The translations under genes and the position numbers were made by a program. A model generated the notes under the pieces. It had not been told where the DNA came from, made no database searches, and saw only the letters and a program-made list of their open reading frames with translations. This document shows positions 20,066 to 40,267 of a DNA stretch of 64,000 bases, in pieces. Location: positions 94,001 to 158,000 of the forward strand of contig CAJBEZ010000064.1 of NCBI GenBank assembly GCA_903952205.1, written 5' to 3'. Source of the DNA: an uncultured Desulfomonile sp. GTDB lineage: Bacteria > Desulfobacterota > Desulfomonilia > Desulfomonilales > Desulfomonilaceae. Within the stretch, counting starts at the first letter, position 1. Every line of letters starts with the position of its first letter.

Positions 20066-20956
20066 TTAAAGTTCCAGCCAGGAATGCGAGTACAGAGACT
20101 GACCGAGTAACAACTTAGCTGTTTTTACGTAATCAACCGCTCTCTTGTCCATTCCGCTCGTGTCAACATCTTCACCATCGACAACACTGCCAACCAGATT
20201 CACCAGATCCGTTGATCTGTCATGAGCTATGTCAACTATGACATCATCAAATCCGTCCATAATGGCTGATGTGATTCCGCATTTGATGAGAATGCAAAGA
20301 TAGACCTGGTTCAAAATGTCCCTCAGTTCATCCGGAGACCCATTCGAACAATTGGACAACCCGCACGTCGATTTGGAACCCGGCGCCAGATCAGGTAACC
20401 ATTGCATAAACGTAGTGCACCCCTGAAGCTCTTTTTGTTGAGAAGAGACAGGAACAACGATGGGATCAAACCAGATTTTTTCTAGTGATATTCCCAGTTC
20501 AGTCGTTTGGGTCATCATGCTGTCGAGTAAAACGGCCCTTTCATTTTCGTCCCTGGGGATACCTTCAGGTCCCCACATGAGGCCTACCATTTCACAGTCA
20601 TATTTGTTCACCAGCGGCAGTTGCAGAGCCATACGTTCTGGTGTAGCCATGATTGAATTGATCACGGCGCGACCCTTTTTGACCTTATAAACCTGGAGAC
20701 CGGCTTCTACGGCTTCATTGTTGGTGGTGTCCAGAAACAGAGGTAGGTCTGTGGCTTCCTGTACAGTCTTGACAAGCCACTGCATCATTTCTGAGCCGCC
20801 CTTACGGGCAGGTCCTAGGTTTAAATCCAAGAGATCCGCTCCTTTTTCCGTGAGCTTGGCGGCCCATTCCTGAATGGGTTTGGGATCTCTCTCTCGCATG
20901 GCGTTGCCGGTATACTTCGACATAATGTTGATGTTTTCAGCCACCACCTTTATCAT
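20066..20956 (-). CDS. acsE: Methyltetrahydrofolate:corrinoid iron-sulfur protein methyltransferase
   Basis: 296 residues of the pterin-binding TIM-barrel family. The N-terminal VVAENINIMS, DLLDLNLGPARKGG (near residues 42-55), FLDTTNNEA (near 73) and the Asn/Asp-rich folate pocket agree with AcsE. It moves the methyl group from methyl-tetrahydrofolate to the cobalt of the AcsC/AcsD corrinoid protein. A good AGGAGG precedes ATG 20956. It is the last gene of the CODH/ACS operon. It is longer than Moorella AcsE (about 262), with extra length near the Cys-containing GLSNCSNGS region and the C-terminus. Confidence 0.93.
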   Translation of the reverse strand: MIKVVAENINIMSKYTGNAMRERDPKPIQEWAAKLTEKGADLLDLNLGPARKGGSEMMQWLVKTVQEATDLPLFLDTTNNEAVEAGLQVYKVKKGRAVINSIMATPERMALQLPLVNKYDCEMVGLMWGPEGIPRDENERAVLLDSMMTQTTELGISLEKIWFDPIVVPVSSQQKELQGCTTFMQWLPDLAPGSKSTCGLSNCSNGSPDELRDILNQVYLCILIKCGITSAIMDGFDDVIVDIAHDRSTDLVNLVGSVVDGEDVDTSGMDKRAVDYVKTAKLLLGQSLYSHSWLEL

Positions 20957-21142: not shown

Positions 21143-22483
21143 CTAAATAAAGTTTTGCCTCAAATAGGCGGGAATGTGCGCTCCTTCCCGGGGACCTATG
21201 GCAATTTCCCAATTAGGCAACTCCTCTTCGAGATCGCCGCTGATGATTGCCGCAGCTCCAGGTATTACGAGCTTCTTTAAACCTGTTTTATCTTCTATTC
21301 CGCATTTCTTGACAAATGGTCCTATCACGTCACCAACAAATTTGCCGGCGGCCCAGGCGGTCAGCACCGACAGTCCGTCAGTGTTGAGCACCAAGAGCCA
21401 TGCGGGAACTCTGCTGGATTCCACTTCACCGGATACAATAAAATAAGTAAGCGAGAAATTGCTGGTTATCAGCACCGGTGACTTATCATCCGGATTATTT
21501 ATGGGATAAATACCCTGTTCCGTTGTCATGGGCCGTTGAGGATCGGTAAATATGTTAAGTCGTTGGAGTAACAACGGAAAAAGAACTTCACCCTTGAGTT
21601 CACTCAGAATTTCGATTCCGGCATATTTTGATATGAATGTTCCAGCCACTATTGTCTCGTCAATTGGATTGTCGGACATTGCGCACGGAAACACTATGGT
21701 CGGAAACCCAAGTGGTCTATAGAGTTTCTCCAATGCCAGTCTTCTTATCATGACCTGATCTCGGAGCTGTTCCGCCAGACTTAGATTATCTACAGAAAGT
21801 ACGAGATCTTTGTGGCCCTTTGCTGTCAATTTAGCCGATAAAGCGGCCAAGAGCCCAACTTTGGGAGCTTTAATCGCCAAAGGACAGTCAAATTCTTTGG
21901 CCAAATCCGACATGCTGTCAAGATTGGCTTCAGTGGCCGCATATAGCAGTGGCTTGTTCTTGCCTACTTCGGCAAGGGCCGCTTTAAAAGAGTCTAAATT
22001 TTCACTTATCAGCACCAGGGCCGCTCCCGCTTCGCTTGCTTTCTTGGCAATGGCGGCGAACCGATCGGAAGCCCCTTCGTCTTTTACGGCTATCAGTTCT
22101 GACTTAAGTGTTAATCCAACGCGTTCGTATCGAAGTTCTTTAAAGGCGGCGAGTTTTTTGTCAACACTCTCATCTGTTTCGGACGTGGAAATGAGACACC
22201 CCAATCCAGTTGGATTGTTAAATGTCTTATCATGGCGGAAAAGCACCGTTTCTCCGCCAACCTTAACGGCCGCGGCATCAACTCCTATCTGAACGGTTCT
22301 AATCGGAGGAGCCGACGCTGAAGCCAGTTTTTCCTTTGCCTCATCAGAAACGTATGGACAGAGCGAAAGTTCCGCTTTCCCAGCGGCCAGATTCATGGCA
22401 AACGCCAGGCACGTGGGAACACCGCATTCTCCACAGTTTTTCTTCGGCATCATTTTAAAGATTTGAATTCCAGAAAGCGCCAT
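21143..22483 (-). CDS. acsC: Corrinoid iron-sulfur protein large subunit (gamma)
   Basis: 446 residues, the usual length. The N-terminal 4Fe-4S motif CGECGVPTC plus a later Cys (near residues 17-42) holds the cluster that keeps cobalt reduced. The middle is a TIM-barrel-like domain and the C-terminal B12-binding part ends GREGAHIPAYL. Together with AcsD it forms the CFeSP that takes the methyl group from AcsE and passes it to acetyl-CoA synthase. The start has GGGAGG upstream. It lies between acsB and acsE on one strand. Confidence 0.95.
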   Translation of the reverse strand: MALSGIQIFKMMPKKNCGECGVPTCLAFAMNLAAGKAELSLCPYVSDEAKEKLASASAPPIRTVQIGVDAAAVKVGGETVLFRHDKTFNNPTGLGCLISTSETDESVDKKLAAFKELRYERVGLTLKSELIAVKDEGASDRFAAIAKKASEAGAALVLISENLDSFKAALAEVGKNKPLLYAATEANLDSMSDLAKEFDCPLAIKAPKVGLLAALSAKLTAKGHKDLVLSVDNLSLAEQLRDQVMIRRLALEKLYRPLGFPTIVFPCAMSDNPIDETIVAGTFISKYAGIEILSELKGEVLFPLLLQRLNIFTDPQRPMTTEQGIYPINNPDDKSPVLITSNFSLTYFIVSGEVESSRVPAWLLVLNTDGLSVLTAWAAGKFVGDVIGPFVKKCGIEDKTGLKKLVIPGAAAIISGDLEEELPNWEIAIGPREGAHIPAYLRQNFI

Positions 22484-22630: not shown

Positions 22631-24838
22631 TTAGCCGACGATAGATTCCATGTTCACAGCCGGGTGTTCTTTCTCCTGGAGGAACGGCAGAATTTCGTCT
22701 TCGGTCACGCCCACGGTTTCATCCGCGATTCGGTCAGCCAAGTTTGAAATTCCCAGTTTATCTCCTTGGGCGTTGATCTTGTCCCTGAGCATTTCTTTAA
22801 GGTTCTTGGGCAACCATACCAATCTGGCGATCCCGCCTTCGGCTGAAACAAATTTGTCGGAAACTATGTAGAGCTTGCTGTGGCCAACAAAGCCGGGCGT
22901 AACGTTTCCACCACCTGCGCTACCCGCCAGCGTAGTAAACTTCATACCGCAAGGAGTCATTCCCTTGTAATCACGATCAACACTCATTACTCCATTGCAA
23001 ATAGGAAGAACCGCTGCAATGGCCTCGAAGCATCCGCATGAAGTCATCGGGCTTTCCATGATCGAGTAGGCGCTACATCCAACAACTTTGCCACGAGAGG
23101 CTTTGCTCACAAAGTCGTTGACGCCTTCCCATTGGCCCAGTCTATCGTCCAGGACCTTGCCCTTTTCGATCGGCTGGTTGGGGCCGGTGGGATTGATTTC
23201 ATTGGAGGCCTTGCAATCCAACCAGTTGTACGCTCCACATAGACCGGTTCTTTCAGGCGTGACAACGCACACATGCGTAGGGGCAAAACTCTGACAAAGT
23301 GTGCAAGAGAAATAGATGCCCTCATCCTCATCTTTCATACCCTGAACTCTTGAATCTCTGACCGCGTATGCTTCTTTAGCCTGCTTTAGGAGTTCGTCGC
23401 ATTTTGCCTGCTCGGTAAAAATAGTAACTTTTACCTTATCAAGAACCGCCCCGAAATCCTGATGGTATTTGGCATGTAGGATGGACCCTATATGTTTCAG
23501 GGAAAAGCCTTTTTCGACCGCACCCTTGCCAATGCGTACCCAGGCTATATCGCGCTGTCCTATATGCATAAGCCCTTGAGCATAGTTGATAAGGTGGTGA
23601 ATCTGGCGTTCCAGGATCGGTTCAAAGTCAGATTGCATTTTTCTACCGGCCACTTCCACGTAAATACCTATCGGCAGGCGCGTGCCCGGTTTGATATCCT
23701 TGAGATCAGGTCCGATCAGGTCGACTTGGCCATCTTCGATTTCATTCATGTCTTTCATGACTGTCAATTCAACACCGGTAGTCTTTCCACCACCAGCTTC
23801 CATGTGAATGTCGTCGCCTCTAATCCTCTCACCTTCAAACGCCGGTCCATAAGCCACCGGAACAGGAACTTCCGTCACTGTTACCTTGAGGCCTCTGACT
23901 TCGATGGCTTTAGCAACAATATCCTTATGAGCAATGTTCGACACAACGTGTTCGTAGGTACAAACGCCAGTGGGAAGAATTTCGGGAATCGGGGTATCAG
24001 CGATCGTGGGGAAGCCATAATTTATGGCGCCTGCGGCGGCGGCGTACCATTCATTATCGACATCGCCAAGGGCGAGAACAAACGCAAAGACTCGGTCTTT
24101 GTTGTAGATCAAAACCTTCCTGAAATCTCCAGGCTGGATGCCTCCAAAGCTAAGAGCGGCTCTGGTTGCAAAACCAACAGCGAAAATGGCGGAAGAGATA
24201 TCAGGGCCGAAAGGCACAAGTCTTGTTGGCCATCCTACCTGGACTCCAGCTTCTTTTAGCTGCTGGCTGAATGTCGTTCCTTTGTGATTCGCAGCCATGA
24301 ACACATAGAGATTCTTCTTCTGAAGTTCCAAAGCCATATCGGCCGCAATTTCTTTTGTGGGAGCCGACCCTACTATCGCCGCAAATCCCGGAGCTGTTCC
24401 ATCAACGAACTCCACGCCTCTTTTCCTGAGGATGATGTCGTCGGCCGCTCCAAGCCACAATTTGTCATCAGTGGGATCTTCCGCCGGCAGGTAGAAATCA
24501 GGATCTTCCAGATATCTTATCGCTTCGATAATTTCAAAATTGAACAGCGTGGCCATACCCGCGTCCAAAACCGGACCAAGGTATGGAAGGTGAGTCTTTT
24601 CCCTTACAAGGGGGGGCAGTAACTGTTCGGACCTGTCCAAAACCAGCCCCGCATCTCCCAGATTCTTAACAGGAAACCCTAAAATACCGTAAATTACGGG
24701 TAGGTAGTAGCCTGTATTTGGGAACGCTATTTCCTGTTTTTGACCGTATTTTTTCACCGCTTGCTCATAACTCTTACGGGCTTTTTCGTAGACTTTATGA
24801 GATCCGGCTATAACATTCGCTGCAACTATCTTGGACAC
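22631..24838 (-). CDS. acsB: Acetyl-CoA synthase (CODH/ACS complex)
   Basis: 735 residues, close to the bacterial ACS length of about 729. The A-cluster cubane ligands are visible as CTLC, VCVV and LCGA (near residues 504-528), and the Cys-Gly-Cys that holds the nickel sites appears in TSCGCFE (near 594). It joins the CFeSP methyl group, CO from CODH and CoA into acetyl-CoA. The start is GTG 24838 with AGGAG seven bases upstream. It follows the AcsD-CooS fusion gene by 82 bp. Confidence 0.97.
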   Translation of the reverse strand: MSKIVAANVIAGSHKVYEKARKSYEQAVKKYGQKQEIAFPNTGYYLPVIYGILGFPVKNLGDAGLVLDRSEQLLPPLVREKTHLPYLGPVLDAGMATLFNFEIIEAIRYLEDPDFYLPAEDPTDDKLWLGAADDIILRKRGVEFVDGTAPGFAAIVGSAPTKEIAADMALELQKKNLYVFMAANHKGTTFSQQLKEAGVQVGWPTRLVPFGPDISSAIFAVGFATRAALSFGGIQPGDFRKVLIYNKDRVFAFVLALGDVDNEWYAAAAGAINYGFPTIADTPIPEILPTGVCTYEHVVSNIAHKDIVAKAIEVRGLKVTVTEVPVPVAYGPAFEGERIRGDDIHMEAGGGKTTGVELTVMKDMNEIEDGQVDLIGPDLKDIKPGTRLPIGIYVEVAGRKMQSDFEPILERQIHHLINYAQGLMHIGQRDIAWVRIGKGAVEKGFSLKHIGSILHAKYHQDFGAVLDKVKVTIFTEQAKCDELLKQAKEAYAVRDSRVQGMKDEDEGIYFSCTLCQSFAPTHVCVVTPERTGLCGAYNWLDCKASNEINPTGPNQPIEKGKVLDDRLGQWEGVNDFVSKASRGKVVGCSAYSIMESPMTSCGCFEAIAAVLPICNGVMSVDRDYKGMTPCGMKFTTLAGSAGGGNVTPGFVGHSKLYIVSDKFVSAEGGIARLVWLPKNLKEMLRDKINAQGDKLGISNLADRIADETVGVTEDEILPFLQEKEHPAVNMESIVG

Positions 24839-24920: not shown

Positions 24921-27900
24921 TTAACCTGCTATATCACGCCTCATGGCCATATCCATAAGGACTCTTTCGCGGGCCTTATCTATGCCCAGGGCCTTACGTT
25001 TTTCGTCAATGTGCGCTATGCACCTCTTGGCCATCTCGTATGGATCCTTATCCACCATGTCCCATTTCCCGCCATAAGTTTTTTCAATGTCCTTGAAGAG
25101 ATAATTCGTGCAGACATCTTCATTGATCGTTGGGAATCCTCCGCCAAGAAGGACATAACATCCTGATGCGACGAAATACTGACCGATGGATATGGCTTTT
25201 TCACTCATCCATTCCGGAGCTACACCTACCGCTGGAACGTCTGAAATGTCATCACCAAGACCTCCATCCCTGACAACCGCTGTAGCGGCTATAAGGATAC
25301 GGGAGTTGTCAACACATGACCCCATATGGAGGCAGGGAGGAATACCTACGGTCTCGCAAACTTCCGCCAATCCCTGTCCGGCGTATTTCTTCGCTGCGTC
25401 CGGGGATAGCAGGCCGGCCTTGCCCAAGGCGATAGCCGAGCATCCGGTCGTCAGGACCAACACGTCGTTCTTTATAAGTTCCTTGGCCAGCTCAACATGT
25501 AGATAGTCCATTTTTACTCTTGCGTTCCCACATCCAACTATTCCTGCCAGACCTCTGATGCGTCCATTGATGATGTTGTCGTTCAATGGACGGTACGAAG
25601 CGCGGAACATGCCGCCCAACATGTAATTGATGGTTTCATGGCTGAAACCAACAACCATGTCCTGTTGTTCAGAGGGAATATGGATTTTGTTTTTGTCGCG
25701 GTTGGGGAAGTTATCAATGGCTTCCCTAATGATAGCCTTTGCGGTTTCCAATCCATATTTTTCATCATAAGCGTAATGCTTGTACGCTCCTTGCATCTTC
25801 GCAATTGGACTGGTGGTAATGATCTGAGTATGGAAGCACTTGGCCAACTCAGCGACACCCTGCATGATGCATTGCACATCAACGACCATGGTTTCCAATG
25901 CGCCTGTAATGATAGCAAGTTCCTGCTGCAGATAATTCCCTGCAATAGGAATTCCGTGCCGCATGAGGATTTCATTGGAGGTACAGCAAATACCGCCCAA
26001 ACTGATTCCACCTGTAGCGCCTTTGCTCTTTGCATAGGCTATCATTTCCGGATCCTGAACAGCCTGAACGATAATTTCCGATAATGACGGCTCATGCCCA
26101 TGAACGATTATGTTTACAGTGTCTTCTTTCATGCACCCCAGGTTGACTTTACCCAAAATCGGCACCGGAGTTCCATAGAGAGCGTCGGAAAGGTCTGTGG
26201 CAATCATTGATCCGCCCCAGCCATCACCGATGGCGCATTTCGTGGCTAGTCGAATGATATGCTCCATCTCCTGGTTCACGCCCATGTGAGTCATGTGCAT
26301 AACTTCGACAACGGATCGGTCGATTCCCGTCGGGATAACTCCTTCGTTGCGCCAGATTTCCTGACGTTTGAGAGGAGCGCGCTTGATGTTCATTATTTCG
26401 CCGTGCTGCTTACCATATTCGGCGAGGGCTTTCTTACCGACGTCTATGGCTATATCCTTGAATTCCCGACCCTCTGTCTCTACGTCGTAATCCATGGCCA
26501 GAGCCAGGACTTTTGGTTTATCTTTTATTGAATAGTCCGGCAATTCACCTTGCGCCGCTAAAAGGAAAGTATGAGCCACGTGGCGTCCGTGATCGCTATG
26601 TGCCGACGCGCCGGCGGCAACCATACGCGCAAAGTTTCTCGCCGCTATGGTTTCTGGGGTAGCTCCGCATAAACCAGTCCTTAGCTTACGGTCTTCGGGA
26701 GTTTCGTTTTTTCCTTTAGGAGGCAACACCCGGCAGGGTCCCATGTTGCATATTTTGCAGCAGGTTCCGCCCTTTCCTATTGGGCATGCGGTCATTGTGC
26801 GGGCACGGTGGAAGGCGGTCTTGTACCCACCTTCATCAGCCAGTTTGAGACCTTCAAGCGTAACGTCACAGGCCGTATATTCCGTCCAGTCGACAGGCCC
26901 CAATTCTTTTTTCTTCATTGGAGCCGCAAATACTACTTCAGCCTCAGCCTTCGCAGCAGGAGCGCCCTCGACTGCGGCGGCCTTCACAGCGGGAGCCGCG
27001 CCGGCGCTGGGAGCCTTACCCGACAGCACAGTGTCAAGACCCGCCATCATGGAAGTAAGGCCCTTAAGCGCCTTGAACGCGCCTACCATTTCTTTTAGAC
27101 CCTGAATATCATCCTTGGTCAATTGACCCATAATTGCTTCCTCCTCTTCGTCCGTCACATCGGCAACGGGCGCCTTAGCTATTTCCAGCGCTTTACTTGT
27201 TTTTTCCGGTTTAGGTTCGATTGCTTGCGGTTTAACTTCTTCAACCTTAACTTCTACGGTAATTTCTGTTGGTTTAGGAGGTTCAACGGCTTTAAGAGCG
27301 GGTTTGGTTTCCACCTTTGGTTTGGGTGGTTCCGCAGGCTTGGGAGCCGCAGCGGCCGGTTTGGCGGGTTCCTTGGGAGCCTCGGCGGCCAATGACATGT
27401 CTACGGCCATGGACGCTAAATCTGTCTTCTCGGTGATTGAACCCAAATACTTCCTGATATGCTCGAGGGTCTTGGGACTGCGCAATATCAATAAGTCCGA
27501 TCCCGCCTGTAACGCGCTTAACGCAGTCACACTCTCCAGATTCACTCCCCTTAATGACGCGTCCCCCAGTTTACCGTCCGATGGTAACTTCGCCTCTTTG
27601 GTCTTCCAGACTTCCTCGGCTATGTTATTTATTATCGGATACTGAAGCTTGTCATCATTTTGCGTCAACGCCGCCTGGCGTAAACGCTCCATGATCGAAT
27701 AACAATACTCCATCCCATAACCGACGGAACCGGTTGTCGGATCTATAAGTATCTTGTCCGACGGCACTCCAAGATTCTCCAGCAATATGTTGAGCTGCTT
27801 GGCCAAATTGATGTCTATCGGCGAATTCGCCGCTACAACCTGTTTATACGCTATGGCCGCAGCCCCAATCTGCTTATAGTTGCCTTCCGTCACAGGACCC

Positions 27901-28361
27901 AACACCACGTTGTGCCCGGCGCAAGCCTCAGCCACAGCCTTCAGAACCTCCGTGTTCTTCTGCTCATTGGACACCCCCCAAACTATAAGGGGCGTGTCTA
28001 TGGCCTCAGCTACCTTCCTAGCTGTTTCAGCGGCATGCTCAGCGGATAAATTCTTGCCATTGGGGTCAGTCCCCGCCAACCATAAGCAAACCAGGTCGGC
28101 CTTATATTCCTCTACACACTTCTTGGCCCATGCGACCGGGTCCCCAGTTACACCCCTGAATGGCTCCAACGCCTCGTCAGCCCACTCTTCAGGCTCTATA
28201 TCCAAAACCTGAAGAGCCAACTTCGGAACATGCGGCCCCTCTCCTTCAAAACTATAAAAACTGTAGCCCGTCTCTCCGCCTAACACTACCTCCTTGCCAG
28301 GCTTGCCTATTCTAACCTCGCGTATCTTCCCCGAATACTTCATTTTCGGCAGTTCAGCCAT
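24921..28361 (-). CDS. Fusion of AcsD (CFeSP small subunit) with CooS-type CO dehydrogenase
   Basis: One uninterrupted frame of 1146 codons. Residues 1 to about 330 are AcsD, the corrinoid protein small subunit with a TIM-barrel fold. Residues about 331-485 are a Pro/Ala/Lys-rich linker that contains a helix motif DDIQGLKEMVGAFKAL near 416-431. From about 487 the rest is a complete CooS. CODH cluster cysteines are seen in CPIGKGGTCCKICNMGPC (near 523-541). C-cluster ligands are the His in VHGHEPS (near 757) and Cys in GICCTS, DVQCIM, VGCGN, TTGCSA and MGSCVDN (near 792, 829, 944, 974 and 1015). It reduces CO2 to CO for AcsB. In known operons acsD and the CODH gene are separate. Confidence 0.93.
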   Translation of the reverse strand: MAELPKMKYSGKIREVRIGKPGKEVVLGGETGYSFYSFEGEGPHVPKLALQVLDIEPEEWADEALEPFRGVTGDPVAWAKKCVEEYKADLVCLWLAGTDPNGKNLSAEHAAETARKVAEAIDTPLIVWGVSNEQKNTEVLKAVAEACAGHNVVLGPVTEGNYKQIGAAAIAYKQVVAANSPIDINLAKQLNILLENLGVPSDKILIDPTTGSVGYGMEYCYSIMERLRQAALTQNDDKLQYPIINNIAEEVWKTKEAKLPSDGKLGDASLRGVNLESVTALSALQAGSDLLILRSPKTLEHIRKYLGSITEKTDLASMAVDMSLAAEAPKEPAKPAAAAPKPAEPPKPKVETKPALKAVEPPKPTEITVEVKVEEVKPQAIEPKPEKTSKALEIAKAPVADVTDEEEEAIMGQLTKDDIQGLKEMVGAFKALKGLTSMMAGLDTVLSGKAPSAGAAPAVKAAAVEGAPAAKAEAEVVFAAPMKKKELGPVDWTEYTACDVTLEGLKLADEGGYKTAFHRARTMTACPIGKGGTCCKICNMGPCRVLPPKGKNETPEDRKLRTGLCGATPETIAARNFARMVAAGASAHSDHGRHVAHTFLLAAQGELPDYSIKDKPKVLALAMDYDVETEGREFKDIAIDVGKKALAEYGKQHGEIMNIKRAPLKRQEIWRNEGVIPTGIDRSVVEVMHMTHMGVNQEMEHIIRLATKCAIGDGWGGSMIATDLSDALYGTPVPILGKVNLGCMKEDTVNIIVHGHEPSLSEIIVQAVQDPEMIAYAKSKGATGGISLGGICCTSNEILMRHGIPIAGNYLQQELAIITGALETMVVDVQCIMQGVAELAKCFHTQIITTSPIAKMQGAYKHYAYDEKYGLETAKAIIREAIDNFPNRDKNKIHIPSEQQDMVVGFSHETINYMLGGMFRASYRPLNDNIINGRIRGLAGIVGCGNARVKMDYLHVELAKELIKNDVLVLTTGCSAIALGKAGLLSPDAAKKYAGQGLAEVCETVGIPPCLHMGSCVDNSRILIAATAVVRDGGLGDDISDVPAVGVAPEWMSEKAISIGQYFVASGCYVLLGGGFPTINEDVCTNYLFKDIEKTYGGKWDMVDKDPYEMAKRCIAHIDEKRKALGIDKARERVLMDMAMRRDIAG

Positions 28362-28372
28362 CTGACACCTTC
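27256..28372 (-). repeat. Inverted repeat, copy A (acsD half of the fusion gene)
   Basis: About 1.1 kb nearly identical to 38931-40045 on the other strand. Similarity begins at GAAGGTGTCAG just before the start codon and fades in the Pro-rich linker. The encoded proteins differ at one position (Thr versus Ile in HAAExARK) over roughly the first 330 residues, with scattered silent changes. Confidence 0.9.
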
Positions 28373-28420: not shown

Positions 28421-28654
28421 TCAGGCGGGATTTTTTCTTTTCTCGCTGCCAAACCATTCTTTGGAATAGAAGTATCTCTCTGCAGTAGTTAGGTATTTTT
28501 TTATAGGGTCACTTTCCTGGTCCATGTTCACGTAAGTAATGTTTTTGCGCCATTGATAGCTGTCTTCTTCCGGCCCGGCTACATATTCCGGAACCAGAAT
28601 TTTGACCTTCTGACCATCAAACCTTTCCTTCTCTTCGAAGTGTTCAGCTGCCAT
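28421..28654 (-). CDS. Small hypothetical protein leading the CODH/ACS operon, 77 aa
   Basis: Unrecognised, acidic and rich in aromatic residues (VPEYVAGPEEDSYQWRKN, TTAERYFYSKEWFG), no cysteines and no membrane segment. It starts at ATG 28654 with GAGAGGAG nearby upstream and ends 59 bp before the AcsD-CooS gene on the same strand, so it is the probable first gene of the operon. Position suggests a role in assembly or regulation of CODH/ACS, but there is no direct evidence. Confidence 0.65.
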   Translation of the reverse strand: MAAEHFEEKERFDGQKVKILVPEYVAGPEEDSYQWRKNITYVNMDQESDPIKKYLTTAERYFYSKEWFGSEKRKNPA

Positions 28655-28854: not shown

Positions 28855-30390
28855 TCAAAGACGATTGGCCGCCTGTGGGCGCCTTGACATGTACGCTAAA
28901 CGATTCAACGCATTTACCATTGCTTTGGCCGAGGCCACCAGAATGTCTTCGTGAGCCCCTTTACCGACAGCCACATTTCCGTCTTCCTCCAGTCGTATCG
29001 AAGCCTCCCCCAAGGCGTCTGTTCCACCCGTGATACCGCTTATCGCAAAACGAAGCAATTTCGGCCTCCGACCCGTAAGTTTCAATATTGCGTTATAAGT
29101 CGCGTCGACCGGTCCGTTTCCCAGTTCTGCGCCGTGGCATTCTTCCCCTTCTACTGTCATTCTAACGGTTGCTGTCGGCACAACGTCTGATCCGGCCATA
29201 ATCGTTACCGACAGCAATTTATAAGTCTCTGTGGTTCGAAGGACCTCCTCGGCCACAATTGCTTCAAGGTCTTCGTCGTAAATCGTTTTTTTGCGGTCCG
29301 CTAATTCCTTGAAACGCTTAAAGGTAAGATTGACCTCTTCTTCTGCCAGCGAATAGCCCAACGCCTGCATTCTTTCTCGAAAGGCATGGCGCCCCGAGTG
29401 TTTTCCTAAAACCAGGGATGATTTTGATACCCCAACTGTTTTTGGGTCCATAATTTCATAAGTGGATCGTTCTTTTATAACACCGTCCTGGTGTATTCCC
29501 GATTCGTGGGAAAATGCGTTGGCTCCAACAATAGCCTTGTTAGGCTGCACAGGCATACCTGTTATAGCCGTAACTAGTCTACTGGTATGAAAAATCTGGT
29601 CCGTTACGATTCCTGTGGTAAGCTTAAAATGGTCTTTCCTTGTCCTGAGGGCCATAACAATTTCCTCCAAGGAGGCGTTTCCAGCCCTTTCACCTATTCC
29701 GTTTATTGTGCATTCAACTTGCCGCGCCCCCGCCTCAACAGCCGCCAGTGAATTAGCTACAGCCAATCCAAGATCATCGTGGCAATGTGTTGATATGATG
29801 ATGTTCTCAGTTTCACTAATTGAGACTTTGATGAATTTTATCAGATCATATATTTCAGACGGATATGAATATCCTACAGTGTCTGGAATATTTATCGTTC
29901 CCGCCCCCTCTCGAATAGCGGTTTCCACTACCTTACAAAGAAAATCTCTGTCACTTCTTGTTGCGTCTTCGCAGGAAAACTCTACCCAATCGCTTAGTGA
30001 TCGGGCTAATCTTACTGCTTTGCCGGCGCGATCTATTACTTCTTCCCGACTCATTCTCAATTTGTGTTTGAGATGAATATCACTGGTCGCTATAAACGTG
30101 TGTATCCCCGGTTTGGCAGCCTTTTCCACGGCTGACCAGGATGTTTCTATGTCCTCAGCGAGTGAACGGGCTAGGCCTACAACTCTAGACTGTTTGATTT
30201 CGGATGCGATTCGGCTTACAGCTTCCTTGTCACCTCCAGAGCTTGCAGGAAATCCCGCTTCAATTATATCGACCCCAAGTCTTTCAAGCTGTCTCGCCAA
30301 TTGCAATTTCTCGTGCTGATTCATGGTCGCCCCTGGGGACTGTTCGCCATCTCTCAGGGTAGTGTCAAAGATCAAAACCTGATCAGTCAT
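28855..30390 (-). CDS. leuA: 2-isopropylmalate synthase
   Basis: 511 residues, standard bacterial LeuA length. The HMGL-like catalytic domain begins FDTTLRDGEQSPGATM and carries the metal-binding STHCHDDLG near residue 200. A GAGERAGN motif is near 233 and the C-terminal LeuA regulatory dimerisation domain follows from about 390. It condenses acetyl-CoA with 2-ketoisovalerate, the first step of leucine synthesis. In Geobacter-type genomes leuA follows pssA; here a corrinoid cluster lies between the two. Confidence 0.96.
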   Translation of the reverse strand: MTDQVLIFDTTLRDGEQSPGATMNQHEKLQLARQLERLGVDIIEAGFPASSGGDKEAVSRIASEIKQSRVVGLARSLAEDIETSWSAVEKAAKPGIHTFIATSDIHLKHKLRMSREEVIDRAGKAVRLARSLSDWVEFSCEDATRSDRDFLCKVVETAIREGAGTINIPDTVGYSYPSEIYDLIKFIKVSISETENIIISTHCHDDLGLAVANSLAAVEAGARQVECTINGIGERAGNASLEEIVMALRTRKDHFKLTTGIVTDQIFHTSRLVTAITGMPVQPNKAIVGANAFSHESGIHQDGVIKERSTYEIMDPKTVGVSKSSLVLGKHSGRHAFRERMQALGYSLAEEEVNLTFKRFKELADRKKTIYDEDLEAIVAEEVLRTTETYKLLSVTIMAGSDVVPTATVRMTVEGEECHGAELGNGPVDATYNAILKLTGRRPKLLRFAISGITGGTDALGEASIRLEEDGNVAVGKGAHEDILVASAKAMVNALNRLAYMSRRPQAANRL

Positions 30391-30584: not shown

Positions 30585-31316
30585 TTATTTGTCATCAAGA
30601 TTTTGGTTATTTGTCCTGTTTACAATGATGAGAGAAAGGTAGGAGGTCGTAGCGCTTTTTAAGCTTTTAACATTGCGAACTATTTCCTCTCCTGGTAACC
30701 CAAGCCTTGAAAAAAATGTGGATTGATCCAGCAAATCGAGATTTGCCAGTGTTTCATAGATCTTATCAAAATATTTGTAAGTTTTTAGAATGACTATGTT
30801 GTCAACTCGCTTCAAAGTTTGTAGCAGCTTGTCACTGCCTTTGGCGCCGGAGACAACAACCAGTGATTGATCGCCCTGTACGAGAGGGATATTCGCCACA
30901 GACGCCGCCGCCTGATACGAAGTGATACCTGGAATGATTTCAACATCTGTCTGAGACTCAATGTTTCGAACTGTCTTTAACAGATATGAGAATGTTGAAT
31001 ATGTCATCGGATCACCCAGCGTCACAAAGGCCACATCTCCCCTTTCTGAAAGAGCTTTGAGAACTGTTTTGGCATTGCGCTCCCAAGCCTTTTGTAGAAC
31101 TACCTTGTCGTTGTTCATTGGGAATGGCAGCGTCTCGATGTTTGCGTTCGGCGCATGCTTACATATTATGTTTCTGGCCAAACTATAATCATTTTTTGTG
31201 GAAGAAGCGGCAAAAATCACCGACACGCTTTTCAATATTCTTACGGCTTTTATTGTGATCAGATCAGGATCTCCTGGCCCCACGCCAATGCCGTATAGCT
31301 TTCCTTTTCTTGACAT
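30585..31316 (-). CDS. cbiL: Precorrin-2 / cobalt-factor II C20-methyltransferase
   Basis: 243 residues of the SAM-dependent tetrapyrrole methylase family. GIGVGPGDPDLITIKAVR at the N-terminus, VTLGDPMTYSTFSYL near residue 93 and EIIPGITSYQAAA near 122 match the CbiL/CobI C20 enzymes. The frame opens at 31340, but ATG 31316 has AGGAA upstream and fits the family start. It adds a methyl group in corrin ring synthesis. In an anaerobe the cobalt-early CbiL route is more likely. It is the last gene of the riboswitch-led corrinoid operon. Confidence 0.9.
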   Translation of the reverse strand: MSRKGKLYGIGVGPGDPDLITIKAVRILKSVSVIFAASSTKNDYSLARNIICKHAPNANIETLPFPMNNDKVVLQKAWERNAKTVLKALSERGDVAFVTLGDPMTYSTFSYLLKTVRNIESQTDVEIIPGITSYQAAASVANIPLVQGDQSLVVVSGAKGSDKLLQTLKRVDNIVILKTYKYFDKIYETLANLDLLDQSTFFSRLGLPGEEIVRNVKSLKSATTSYLSLIIVNRTNNQNLDDK

Positions 31317-31383
31317 ACTTTTTTGTTCCTGCTGTTTCATTTCTACGCTTGGCTCGAACGAACAATCTGGTCCTCGAGGTTCC

Positions 31384-32334
31384 TTAATTCACAGACTCCC
31401 ATTGTTCGGGGTGCAACTTTCTGGAAAGATCTTCCACTGCCGTTACGGATCGAGGCCCGGGTCTTGAAAACACCTGCTCTTCAACCACAAAAAAACGCTG
31501 ATTTTTTATGGCTTCCAATTGGTTAAAGTAAGGCCTTTGTTCAATAGGCCCCGGATCCCGATTCATGGGTCCTCGTTGAACTATATAAAAATCCGGATTC
31601 AACCGAAGAATTTCTTCAATGTTCAATCGAAGAAATTTTTTCTTGCTTACCAAGCTATTCCGGCCCCCGGCCAGTTTGATCACTTCATCGACTATCGAGT
31701 CTTGACCGGCAAGCAATAGATCCGGATATCGAACTTCAAACAGCACTGAAGGCCTTTTCTCTGCTCCGGAAATCTTGTTTCTAACCGACTCAAGCTTTTG
31801 TTTTAGTTTGTATATCAATCGTGTTCCGCTTTCCTCTGACCCTGTCAAAATAGCAAGACGCTCTATCACGGAAAAGAGCTCGGAAAAGCTGTTAGGATTG
31901 AAAACCGCTACGGTAAGACCCTGATCCATAAGTTGCCTGACCGGAACCATGGCCTCTTTTCTACCCGCATTCTGGATTATCAGGTCAGGTTTTAATCCCA
32001 TTATCAACTCAATGTTCGGCCGCATGTGGGTCCCTATACTGGGTTTAGCCAAAATTGATTCCGGTGTTTTGTCAGCGCTGGTGCGTGCTATTAAGCTTCG
32101 TTCCAGACCCATGTCCACCAGGATCTCATTATAGGCTCCATACAGGGCTATGAGTCTTTCGCCAGGCTTTTTCAGTGTGACTTTACGATCAAGATCGTCT
32201 GTCACTCTAATTGACTCTGCCAAACTTGTTACGGCAAAAAGAGTCCCCTGAATCCAGAACATTGCAAAAAGGAACAAAATGGGCCTGAGGAGTTCCAGTA
32301 ACTGGGTGTTCAGAAACCCGTATGTCGGTCTCAT
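31384..32334 (-). CDS. Periplasmic corrinoid/iron-chelate binding protein (BtuF-like)
   Basis: About 316 residues from ATG 32334, with a hydrophobic signal segment (LLRPILFLFAMFWIQGTLFA) and a PBP-II-like fold of the BtuF/FhuD class, seen in ALYGAYNEILVDMGLE, GLKPDLIIQ and LNPDFYIVQR. The reading frame extends to 32400 and this start is the best fit to a signal peptide, with no clear ribosome-binding site. It overlaps the end of the ATPase gene by about 128 bp, unusually long. The riboswitch upstream points to a cobalamin-type substrate. Confidence 0.82.
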   Translation of the reverse strand: MRPTYGFLNTQLLELLRPILFLFAMFWIQGTLFAVTSLAESIRVTDDLDRKVTLKKPGERLIALYGAYNEILVDMGLERSLIARTSADKTPESILAKPSIGTHMRPNIELIMGLKPDLIIQNAGRKEAMVPVRQLMDQGLTVAVFNPNSFSELFSVIERLAILTGSEESGTRLIYKLKQKLESVRNKISGAEKRPSVLFEVRYPDLLLAGQDSIVDEVIKLAGGRNSLVSKKKFLRLNIEEILRLNPDFYIVQRGPMNRDPGPIEQRPYFNQLEAIKNQRFFVVEEQVFSRPGPRSVTAVEDLSRKLHPEQWESVN

Positions 32335-33034
32335 AAATTTCACTGAGGACACTGTCCTTGAAAACATCTTGAGTTTGGCCATCAATAACCACTTTGCCAT
32401 CTTTCAGAAAAACTAGACGCTTGCAGTACAATGCGGCAAGATTTAAATCGTGCAATACGCATATCACCGTAGCCCCTTCATGATTTTTTTTTGTCAGTAA
32501 ATCAAAAACCTGTATTTTTTTTGCAGCGTCCAGGTTGGAAGTAGCTTCATCGAGAATTAGTATTTCCGTTGTTTGAGCTATAGCGCGAGCTATAGTCACA
32601 AGTTGAGATTCTCCGCCGGATACTCTTTTGATCGACTTTTGGGCCAGCTTGAGAATTCCTGTCTGGCGCATGGCGTCTTTGGCCAAATCACGGTCTTCTT
32701 TTGAATAACCGGCCCATGAATCCAAATATGGATAACGCCCCATTAGAACGATTGAAAGGTTTGTGAAGTCAAATGAAATTTCAGATTTTTGAGGCACGCA
32801 CGCTACTCTTTTTGCCATTTCTTTCGTTGGATAAGTTCGAACTGGTTTTCCATCCAGCAGAATCTGACCCGATCTAATTGGGACAACGCCTGTCAAAGCC
32901 ATTATCAGAGTGGTTTTTCCGCTTCCGTTAGGACCTAGAATGCCTATCATCTCGTTATGAATTATTTTGAGCGAGATCCCTTTCAGAACTTCCTGGTCTT
33001 GATAACCAGCGACGATGTTCTCAATTTCAATCAA
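32207..33034 (-). CDS. ABC transporter ATP-binding protein (BtuD/FecE-like)
   Basis: 275 residues. Walker A GPNGSGKTT near residue 34, signature RVSGGESQLV near 138 and Walker B ILILDEATSNLD near 158 are intact, with the switch His in VLHDLNLAA. It powers import together with the permease encoded upstream, whose last bases it overlaps by 8 bp. The final 17 residues (after HFVPF) go beyond the usual family end and lie within the overlap with the binding-protein gene. Confidence 0.93.
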   Translation of the reverse strand: MIEIENIVAGYQDQEVLKGISLKIIHNEMIGILGPNGSGKTTLIMALTGVVPIRSGQILLDGKPVRTYPTKEMAKRVACVPQKSEISFDFTNLSIVLMGRYPYLDSWAGYSKEDRDLAKDAMRQTGILKLAQKSIKRVSGGESQLVTIARAIAQTTEILILDEATSNLDAAKKIQVFDLLTKKNHEGATVICVLHDLNLAALYCKRLVFLKDGKVVIDGQTQDVFKDSVLSEIYETDIRVSEHPVTGTPQAHFVPFCNVLDSGDSFCRNKFGRVN

Positions 33035-34109
33035 AGCCGGTTCCTGTCTTTGCGCCCTTCAGCAACACGCAAAAGAATGGTCCTCCAATGAGCGCTGTGA
33101 TTACCCCTACAGGCAGCTCCTCGCCCTCCGGCAGAATAATTCTGGCCGCAACATCCGACCAGATCATGGCGATCATTCCCAACAAGCCGGCTAAAACAAA
33201 GAGCCTCAAATGATTCGGGCCCACAGACATTCTTACCAGGTGCGGCGCTACCAGGCCGACAAAACCGATAACGCCGGAAACCGAGACAGCGGCGGCCGTC
33301 AGTAAACTGGCGCCTATTAATACCATCGCACGGGCTTTATTCGTATCTACTCCAAGCTGGCGAGCCGGAAAATCACCCAATGACATCAGATCTATTTCCC
33401 GACTGTAAATCACTACCAGTATCAATCCCGCCACCAGGTAAGGAAAAGCAAAAATGGCGTGTGACCAACCGCGCCCCTGGAAGCTTCCCATAACCCAGAA
33501 GACTATACTTGCCACGGATTCTTCATCCAGAGATTTTAACAGAGAAACCAAAGCGCCAAGGAATGTCGCTACCACTATTCCCGCGAGAACCATTGTATCC
33601 CTTCGCAAGATCCCGTCTACCCTGGCAAGACTTATTACAGCCGCGAGGGCTGACAGCGCTCCCATAAGCGCGGCTAAAGGCGCCAGCCCCAATCCCCAAG
33701 CGGTCTTTGATCCAAGACCTAGAAATATTATCAGGGCCGCCCCAAAAGCCCCTCCTGCGGAAACACCTATTGTGAAAGGGTCCGCCAGAGGATTCCTTAG
33801 AATCCCCTGGAAGGCTGCGCCCGAAACCGCTAGGGCCAGCCCGACCATGGCGGACAAACATACCCGACTTAACCGGACATCAAATATGATAGCTTTTTGC
33901 ATTAGATCCAATGTCTCGTCATGAATCAACCCAACTCCGGAAGCCAGACACTTTATCACTACAGAGAAAGGGATTTCTATTCGACCTATTGAACACGCTA
34001 GGATCACCGAGGTCACAGCAGTTAAGATCAGAATTATCATTGACGCTGTAAAGCGCCATCTTTCGTTCTGATAGTGATGTTCCAATTCATTACTATCGAC
34101 TGTTTCCAT
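33027..34109 (-). CDS. ABC transporter permease, FecCD/BtuC family
   Basis: About 360 residues from ATG 34109, with around ten membrane helices. Family motifs include GAAFQGILRNPLADP near residue 98, GVSAGGAFGAAL following it, and GFVGLVAPHLVR near 280. The frame is open to an ATG at 34148, but that codon sits in the loop of the riboswitch terminator hairpin, so it is unlikely to be the start. It is the first gene of the btu-like operon controlled by the cobalamin riboswitch. Confidence 0.92.
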   Translation of the reverse strand: METVDSNELEHHYQNERWRFTASMIILILTAVTSVILACSIGRIEIPFSVVIKCLASGVGLIHDETLDLMQKAIIFDVRLSRVCLSAMVGLALAVSGAAFQGILRNPLADPFTIGVSAGGAFGAALIIFLGLGSKTAWGLGLAPLAALMGALSALAAVISLARVDGILRRDTMVLAGIVVATFLGALVSLLKSLDEESVASIVFWVMGSFQGRGWSHAIFAFPYLVAGLILVVIYSREIDLMSLGDFPARQLGVDTNKARAMVLIGASLLTAAAVSVSGVIGFVGLVAPHLVRMSVGPNHLRLFVLAGLLGMIAMIWSDVAARIILPEGEELPVGVITALIGGPFFCVLLKGAKTGTGFD

Positions 34110-34130
34110 TGCAGTAATTTTCTGTTCCAA

Positions 34131-34164
34131 AATAAAAACCCCGGACATGCGATTGTCCGGGGTT
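34131..34164 (-). terminator. Riboswitch expression-platform terminator
   Basis: Perfect 11-bp stem (34137-34147 with 34154-34164, AACCCCGGACA type), six-base loop, then TTTATTTT on the minus strand. It lies between the cobalamin aptamer and the permease gene, the expected place for a transcription-attenuating element. Confidence 0.9.
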
Positions 34165-38930: not shown

Positions 38931-40045
38931 GAAGGTGTCAGATGGCTGAACTGCCGAAAATGAAGTATTCGGGGAAGATACGCGAGGTTAGAATAGGCAA
39001 GCCTGGCAAGGAGGTAGTGTTAGGCGGAGAGACGGGCTACAGTTTTTATAGTTTTGAGGGAGAGGGGCCGCATGTTCCGAAGTTGGCTCTTCAGGTTTTG
39101 GATATAGAGCCTGAGGAGTGGGCTGACGAGGCGTTGGAGCCATTCAGGGGTGTGACTGGAGACCCGGTCGCATGGGCGAAGAAATGTGTAGAGGAATACA
39201 AGGCTGACCTGGTTTGTTTATGGTTGGCGGGGACTGATCCCAATGGCAAGAATTTATCTGCGGAGCATGCCGCTGAAATAGCCCGGAAGGTAGCCGAGGC
39301 CATAGACACGCCCCTTATAGTTTGGGGGGTGTCCAATGAGCAGAAGAACACGGAGGTTCTTAAGGCTGTTGCTGAGGCGTGCGCGGGGCACAACGTGGTG
39401 TTGGGTCCTGTGACGGAAGGCAACTATAAGCAGATTGGGGCTGCGGCCATAGCGTATAAACAGGTTGTAGCGGCCAATTCGCCGATAGACATCAATTTGG
39501 CCAAGCAGCTCAACATATTGCTGGAGAATCTTGGAGTGCCGTCGGACAAGATACTGATAGACCCGACAACCGGTTCCGTCGGTTATGGGATGGAGTATTG
39601 TTATTCGATCATGGAGCGTTTACGCCAGGCGGCGTTGACGCAAAATGACGACAAGCTTCAGTATCCGATAATAAATAACATAGCCGAGGAAGTCTGGAAG
39701 ACCAAAGAGGCGAAGTTACCATCGGACGGTAAACTGGGGGACGCGTCATTAAGGGGAGTAAATCTGGAGAGTGTGACGGCGTTAAGCGCGTTACAGGCGG
39801 GATCGGACTTATTGATATTGCGCAGTCCCAAAACTCTTGAACATATCAGGAAGTATTTGGGTTCAATCACGGAGAAGACGGATTTAGCGTCCATGGCAGT
39901 AGACATGTCATTGGCTGCGGAGCCTCCCAAAGAACCGGCCAAACCGACCGCTGCGGCTCCCAAGCCCGTGGAACCACCCAAACCAAAGCTGGAAACCAAA
40001 CCCGCTCTTAAAGCCGTTGAACCTCCTAAACCTCCTGAAATAACC
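38931..40045 (+). repeat. Inverted repeat, copy B (free-standing acsD)
   Basis: Partner of 27256-28372, in inverted orientation with 10.56 kb between the copies. The 5' limits include the ribosome-binding region, while upstream promoter regions are unrelated. The match ends in the Pro-rich linker around AVEPPKP. Confidence 0.9.
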
Positions 40046-40267
40046 GCAGAAGCGGTTGCAGCGGTCGCAAAGCCGCCGGTTCCCGCTGCCGCGCTTACAG
40101 TTCTCGTTTCTCCTCCTGTGGCTCAAGAGGAAAACGCCGAGTACGAGGTGGATGTTCCGGGAGAATTGTCAGACGAGGATATTGCGGCTCTCAGACAGAT
40201 GGTTGGAGCGTTTAGAGCCATTCGGGCGTTTGTGTCGGATTTGGGAGATAGGCTGTTGAATCGTTAG
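38942..40267 (+). CDS. acsD: Corrinoid iron-sulfur protein small subunit, second copy with C-terminal helix
   Basis: 441 residues. Positions 1 to about 330 are AcsD and are nearly identical to the N-terminal part of the fusion gene at 24921-28361. Residues 331-405 are a Pro/Ala-rich linker, and the protein ends with EDIAALRQMVGAFRAI (near 412-427) plus a short tail, echoing the helix motif inside the fusion's linker. It could form ordinary CFeSP with AcsC. It stands alone, opposite in direction to the ilv and glycolysis operons. The ribosome-binding site is AAGGTG, five bases before ATG. Confidence 0.93.
   Translation: MAELPKMKYSGKIREVRIGKPGKEVVLGGETGYSFYSFEGEGPHVPKLALQVLDIEPEEWADEALEPFRGVTGDPVAWAKKCVEEYKADLVCLWLAGTDPNGKNLSAEHAAEIARKVAEAIDTPLIVWGVSNEQKNTEVLKAVAEACAGHNVVLGPVTEGNYKQIGAAAIAYKQVVAANSPIDINLAKQLNILLENLGVPSDKILIDPTTGSVGYGMEYCYSIMERLRQAALTQNDDKLQYPIINNIAEEVWKTKEAKLPSDGKLGDASLRGVNLESVTALSALQAGSDLLILRSPKTLEHIRKYLGSITEKTDLASMAVDMSLAAEPPKEPAKPTAAAPKPVEPPKPKLETKPALKAVEPPKPPEITAEAVAAVAKPPVPAAALTVLVSPPVAQEENAEYEVDVPGELSDEDIAALRQMVGAFRAIRAFVSDLGDRLLNR

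Follow-up and report, generated by a model that had tools for sequence, protein, structure and literature searches.

The closest described relatives of this locus are the bacterial CO dehydrogenase/acetyl-CoA synthase (CODH/ACS) systems of Clostridium autoethanogenum (9fzy/6ytt) and Moorella thermoacetica (1mjg), in which CoFeSP, the corrinoid protein, is separate from CODH. The acetogen CFeSP is described as standing alone, whereas in the methanogen ACDS complex CODH, ACS and the corrinoid protein are stably held together as a single particle (PMC11474084). Structural work is still establishing how the corrinoid protein reaches ACS in the course of turnover; in one study, free CH3-CoFeSP crowded the micrographs too much for single-particle analysis (PMC12289521). 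Homologues of CooS/AcsA, AcsB, AcsC, AcsD and AcsE from the bacterial systems are all encoded in the window (the whole 64,000-nucleotide stretch of Desulfomonile sp. DNA analyzed here), in the gene order of most Desulfobacterota. Unlike in those systems, the CODH N-terminus here carries AcsD through a covalent link, and whereas the methanogen ACDS is a non-covalent assembly of separate subunits, the connection here is a peptide tether. In the E2 chains of 2-oxo-acid dehydrogenases, a lipoyl carrier domain, a Pro/Ala-rich linker, a small helical segment, a second linker and a core enzyme follow one another. The fusion protein would have a similar working layout by analogy, with no sequence relation and with a corrinoid protein subunit as carrier rather than a lipoyl domain. 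As the original prediction supposed, the architecture appears undescribed: we found no account of an AcsD–CooS fusion in the literature searched, to which the supplement of PMC6344411, a catalogue that includes CODHs 'fused to other proteins', may yet add an entry, and PMC12827605, which examined the pathway across Desulfobacterota in 2026, leaves it unmentioned. The parts are known; the joined architecture appears to be new.

The acsD::cooS gene (24921–28361, minus strand) is a single open frame of 1146 codons without an internal stop, as first reported, and both of its halves match Pfam and NCBIfam models. The AcsD domain (aa 1–310; 27432–28361, minus strand) matches Pfam CdhD (PF03599) over residues 15–256 (E 6.5e-44; 150.7 against a cut-off of 24.8) and is recognized as a delta subunit by NF003376 (residues 3–308; 385 bits against a cut-off of 280); its scores for NF003377, NF040759 and TIGR00381 all lie below the respective cut-offs, and its matches in the PDB are 2h9a_B, 4c1n_B and 9fzy_E. 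The CODH (CooS/AcsA) part, which starts at approximately residue 485 and runs to residue 1146 (24924–26909, minus strand), matches Pfam Prismane/CODH over 533–1107 (E 3.2e-159) and reaches 583.9 bits with the TIGR01702 CO_DH_cata equivalog (505–1127; cut-off 478), which identifies it as a Ni,Fe-CODH; the best PDB sequence match is 6ytt/9fzy and the fold match is 6t7j (TM 0.96 by target). The prediction of a complete CooS with its C-cluster ligands was borne out, in that the protein has every Cys and His motif expected for the B-, C- and D-clusters, and these are invariant in an alignment of the fusions. They comprise Cys526, 534, 535, 538, 543 and 565 for the D- and B-clusters and VHGHEP (753–758), GICCTSNE (Cys792/793), DVQC831, VGC944, TTGC974 and GSC1016 for the C-cluster, residues that we take to be cluster ligands by way of CODH-II. 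The D-cluster spacing, C-X7-CC, fits type II as that class is outlined in PMC6344411.

Between the two enzymes lies a linker that had been described as 150 residues long and Pro/Ala rich. The composition holds (A 33, P 19, K 18 and E 16 of 129), but the length is nearer 175 residues (aa 311–484), and structure prediction places one helix (416–445) within an otherwise disordered chain. The first half (aa 311–410; 27132–27431, minus strand) has abundant Ala, Pro, Lys and Glu, with predicted disorder at pLDDT < 50 over 308–413; it is followed by a mini-domain (aa 411–445; 27027–27131, minus strand) that carries the helix, modeled at pLDDT ~60 over part of its length, and by an Ala-rich second half (aa 446–484; 26910–27026, minus strand) predicted to be disordered at pLDDT < 50 over 432–484. 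By composition and pLDDT, this is the flexible Pro/Ala-rich linkage between folded domains that characterizes swinging-arm architectures. Comparison of the family's seven complete fusions gives mean pairwise identities and pN/pS values (ratios of proportions rather than corrected rates, with synonymous sites near saturation) of 85% and 0.13 for the AcsD part, 89% and 0.10 for the CODH part, 39% and 0.47 for the first linker half (aa 311–404), 42% and 0.37 for the second linker half, and 64% and 0.23 for the linker helix. Both halves are thus under strong purifying selection, and both enzymes are therefore maintained, while the helix is, by its sequence conservation, the constrained piece within the linker. 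A helix segment of the form L[ST]..[DE][IV]..L[KR].M...F[KR] is common to the fusion linker, the C-terminal end of free AcsD and the N-terminal end of the one separate CooS in the family. It could be speculated that this helix is a docking or pairing element that draws free AcsD to CODH; this stays a speculation because its amphipathicity is weak, the hydrophobic moment being not significant against shuffled sequences in most rows of the alignment.

We searched all 18 Desulfomonilaceae genomes in our collection and found the complete one-frame fusion in seven (G000, G008, G009, G010, G013, G014 and G016) and an in-frame 3′ part, with linker up to the contig end, in three others (G001, G002 and G012). 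The fusion is genuine and conserved through the family, and Desulfomonilaceae thus appear, from these sequences, to tether a carrier that is a separate protein elsewhere. One carrier of the same fusion, G010, is the finished genome of a cultured isolate, Desulfomonile tiedjei DSM 6799 (its second contig has the length of plasmid NC_018026.1 and an identical sequence over the first 8 kb). The exception in the family is G011, in which acsD and cooS are separate genes; because G011 does without it, the fusion is not essential in the family. The family forms a supported clade in a tree of AcsB, AcsC and CooS (100%), within which the branch position of G011 has 50% support. G011 either split off before the fusion arose or discarded the AcsD portion while retaining a CODH that begins at an internal start, and the sequences slightly favor the second course, because the helix at the N-terminal end of its CooS is homologous to AcsD tails.

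We consider it roughly 60% probable that two operon neighbors were fused so that the Pro/Ala-rich linker tethers AcsD, together with AcsC, to CODH/ACS as a swinging carrier, with an internal start and free AcsD allowing forms to be mixed. The neighboring acsD and cooS would have merged into one frame early in Desulfomonilaceae, leaving the small corrinoid-protein subunit attached to the CODH N-terminus by a flexible Pro/Ala-rich linker. The idea that the tether would keep a methyl carrier close to where CO is produced remains plausible, with the correction that AcsD itself would not be the carrier: the corrinoid is borne by AcsC, with which AcsD pairs, so that the whole methyl-corrinoid carrier would be tethered through the AcsC–AcsD dimer. 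ACS would sit on CODH through the ACS N-terminal domain (PF18537, found in the AcsB encoded here), and a model in PMC12289521 sets an AcsD-type subunit against that same ACS domain. The tether would keep the carrier near ACS, giving a higher local concentration and easier methyl transfer in either direction, while still allowing it to move between AcsE and ACS. The internal start would probably also give untethered CODH, and where a free AcsD copy exists, as in some genera, tethered and free forms could be mixed in one complex. A natural one-chain AcsD–CODH would fix both stoichiometry and local concentration and could so help to capture the enzyme in its methyl-transfer state, in an organism that is in culture.

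Downstream of the fusion and on the same strand lie acsB (22631–24838), an acetyl-CoA synthase with its CODH-binding N-terminal domain (NF040764, 1085 bits; PF18537, PF03598 and PF19436), acsC (21143–22483), the large corrinoid protein subunit (NF003195, 569 bits; PF03599 and the PF04060 FeS domain), which is intact in the fusion operon, and an acsE-like methyltetrahydrofolate:corrinoid protein methyltransferase gene (20066–20956; PF00809, with 217.8 bits for NF005719, under the cut-off of 259); together they make a CODH/ACS operon, and AcsB, AcsC and AcsE are intact beside the fusion in the family genomes. Among the best 80 GTDB loci, the usual order is acsD, immediately followed by cooS, and then acsB, acsC and acsE, with acsD and cooS separate outside the family. 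Because acsD and cooS are ordinarily operon neighbors, the fusion joined neighbors of an ordinary operon.

That same adjacency lends itself to a plainer account, in which loss of a stop codon did no more than fix one-to-one synthesis, the subunits working as usual and the linker being passive or removed by proteolysis. As most relatives have acsD and cooS side by side in this order, such a fusion needs little change, and both the poor conservation of the linker sequence and the separate genes of G011 agree with it. We nevertheless regard this account as unlikely, although it is the most serious competitor, since the linker helix is constrained and common to free AcsD tails and the separate CooS, linker length is roughly kept (the fusion proteins span 1099–1146 aa), and AcsD tethering seems to have arisen more than once.

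The linker contains an internal in-frame ATG, Met411 (27129–27131, minus strand), a candidate second start for free CODH. It is preceded, 8 nt upstream, by a Shine–Dalgarno-like AGGAGG (27140–27145, minus strand), and the predicted pairing at this site is the strongest of the 36 in-frame ATGs in the window's gene; the site is also the strongest in G001, G002 and G012 and is moderate elsewhere in the family, outside genus g1 and G012. Met411 is kept in all ten family fusions and is missing from the homologous tail of all five free AcsD proteins, and the separate CooS of G011 starts exactly at its equivalent, with its own AAGGA upstream. Selection on the Shine–Dalgarno-like site at the codon level is unsupported, as synonymous recodings of the Glu run often pair equally well or more strongly. 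From these sequence features, the gene may make both the full-length fusion and free CODH from Met411. A bolder version, which we hold tentatively and at less than even odds, is that the dual-start gene yields tethered AcsD–CODH plus free CODH, that the shared helix docks free AcsD or second chains, that the covalent carrier swings between the methyltransferase and ACS, and that this arrangement evolved at least twice independently; if true, it would constitute a covalent assembly-line form of the Wood–Ljungdahl core.

The original prediction had overlooked this possible start, the usual acsD–cooS adjacency, a small operon protein discussed below and a second, free acsD in the window (38942–40267, plus strand), which encodes 441 aa with a Pro-rich tail that ends in the same kind of helix. 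Over 1111 nt, from just before the ATG to within the linker, free and fused acsD are 95.8% identical, forming inverted near-identical copies ~10 kb apart (38942–40267, plus strand, and 27250–28371, minus strand), and the proteins differ by one amino acid in the first 310 residues (dN 0.0014, dS 0.16). Although G000 and G002 belong to one genus, their acsD orthologues share only 81% identity, whereas the two copies within G002 agree at 100% over 107 comparable nt and those within G012 at 98% over 128 nt. The C-terminal tails of the free proteins are alike and differ from the fusion linkers. Because copies within a genome are far closer than orthologues while the tails remain distinct, gene conversion has apparently homogenized the AcsD parts of old paralogues in three or more family genomes; in D. 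tiedjei, the two AcsD copies are 74% identical. Such near-identical inverted copies break assemblies, and the contigs of G002 and G012 end at this repeat. Annotators should be warned that AcsD and CODH in Desulfomonilaceae often come from one gene.

A free AcsD accompanies the fusion in five genomes and may make the fused copy partly redundant in them. In another reading, the full-length product would be minor, with normal CODH made from the internal start, normal AcsD made from free acsD and the upstream half a decaying duplicate. The strength of the Shine–Dalgarno-like sequence before Met411 in the genus of the window and the near-identical free AcsD in G000 speak for such a scheme, yet we find it improbable. 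The fused AcsD half is under the strong purifying selection given above (pN/pS 0.13) and has one core amino-acid difference from the free copy, though gene conversion could explain the latter. Moreover, no AcsD other than the fused one was found in G009, G013 and G014, whose genomes are 96–99% complete, and no CODH other than the fused one in G000, G009 and G014; the fusion gene must therefore supply both functions in those genomes.

An assembly artefact or frame error that joined two genes has a negligible chance of being right, because even though an assembler might be misled by a 96% identical acsD at a distance of 10 kb, which does coincide with the contig breaks in G002 and G012, the junction lies inside unique linker sequence and recurs in independent genomes, the finished D. 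tiedjei genome and five other genera of the family, whose orthologous complete fusions are 80–83% identical.

Beyond the family, one of 395 genomes of the phylum carries a true single-frame AcsD–CooS protein (G067; L054:1450–4821, plus strand), which is 1123 aa long, 58% identical, lacks the internal Met and has a helix-like stretch in mid-linker; its genome, with a contamination estimate of 6%, is the sole one of its family and class in the searched set. Other candidates suggested by open-frame length, including G050 (1284 aa) and G110 (1188 aa), were set aside, as only G067 proved truly one frame among those translated, and the best 80 GTDB loci held no such fusion outside the family. The G067 fusion is probably independent of that in Desulfomonilaceae. 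In f2, another family of the class to which Desulfomonilaceae belong, a different fusion, AcsB::AcsD, encodes proteins of 1163–1180 aa (L042:4161–7703, minus strand; L041:1858–5349, minus strand). AcsD is likewise tethered there, through a linker whose middle holds a helix-like stretch, but it is joined to ACS, stands at the C-terminal end and leaves CODH separate, unlike in the Desulfomonilaceae fusion. Because of the G067 fusion and the f2 fusion with its similar linker, the sequences suggest that AcsD tethering arose repeatedly. Judged from match positions only, G035 and G041 may hold AcsB::AcsD proteins like those of f2.

Directly upstream of the fusion lies a family-conserved 77-aa open reading frame (28421–28654, minus strand) that has no match in Pfam or NCBIfam and ends in FGSEKRKNPA. 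Because this end resembles the AcsD C-terminal tails of other Desulfobacterota (L061, L062, L069, L070, L072, L074 and L075; ..LHYWYSEGYGSEKRKKPA), the protein is probably, on sequence likeness, a small AcsD-associated subunit that is joined to AcsD in other families. Further upstream of the CODH/ACS operon is a gene that, judged by eye, resembles 2-isopropylmalate synthase (LeuA; 28855–30390, minus strand), found at the same place in most family genomes that could be checked. Beyond it, at 30585–34148 on the minus strand, we recognized by eye a precorrin-2 methyltransferase-like frame and a vitamin B12/siderophore-type ABC importer (binding protein, ATPase and permease), which, adjoining the CODH/ACS genes, may perhaps serve corrinoid supply.
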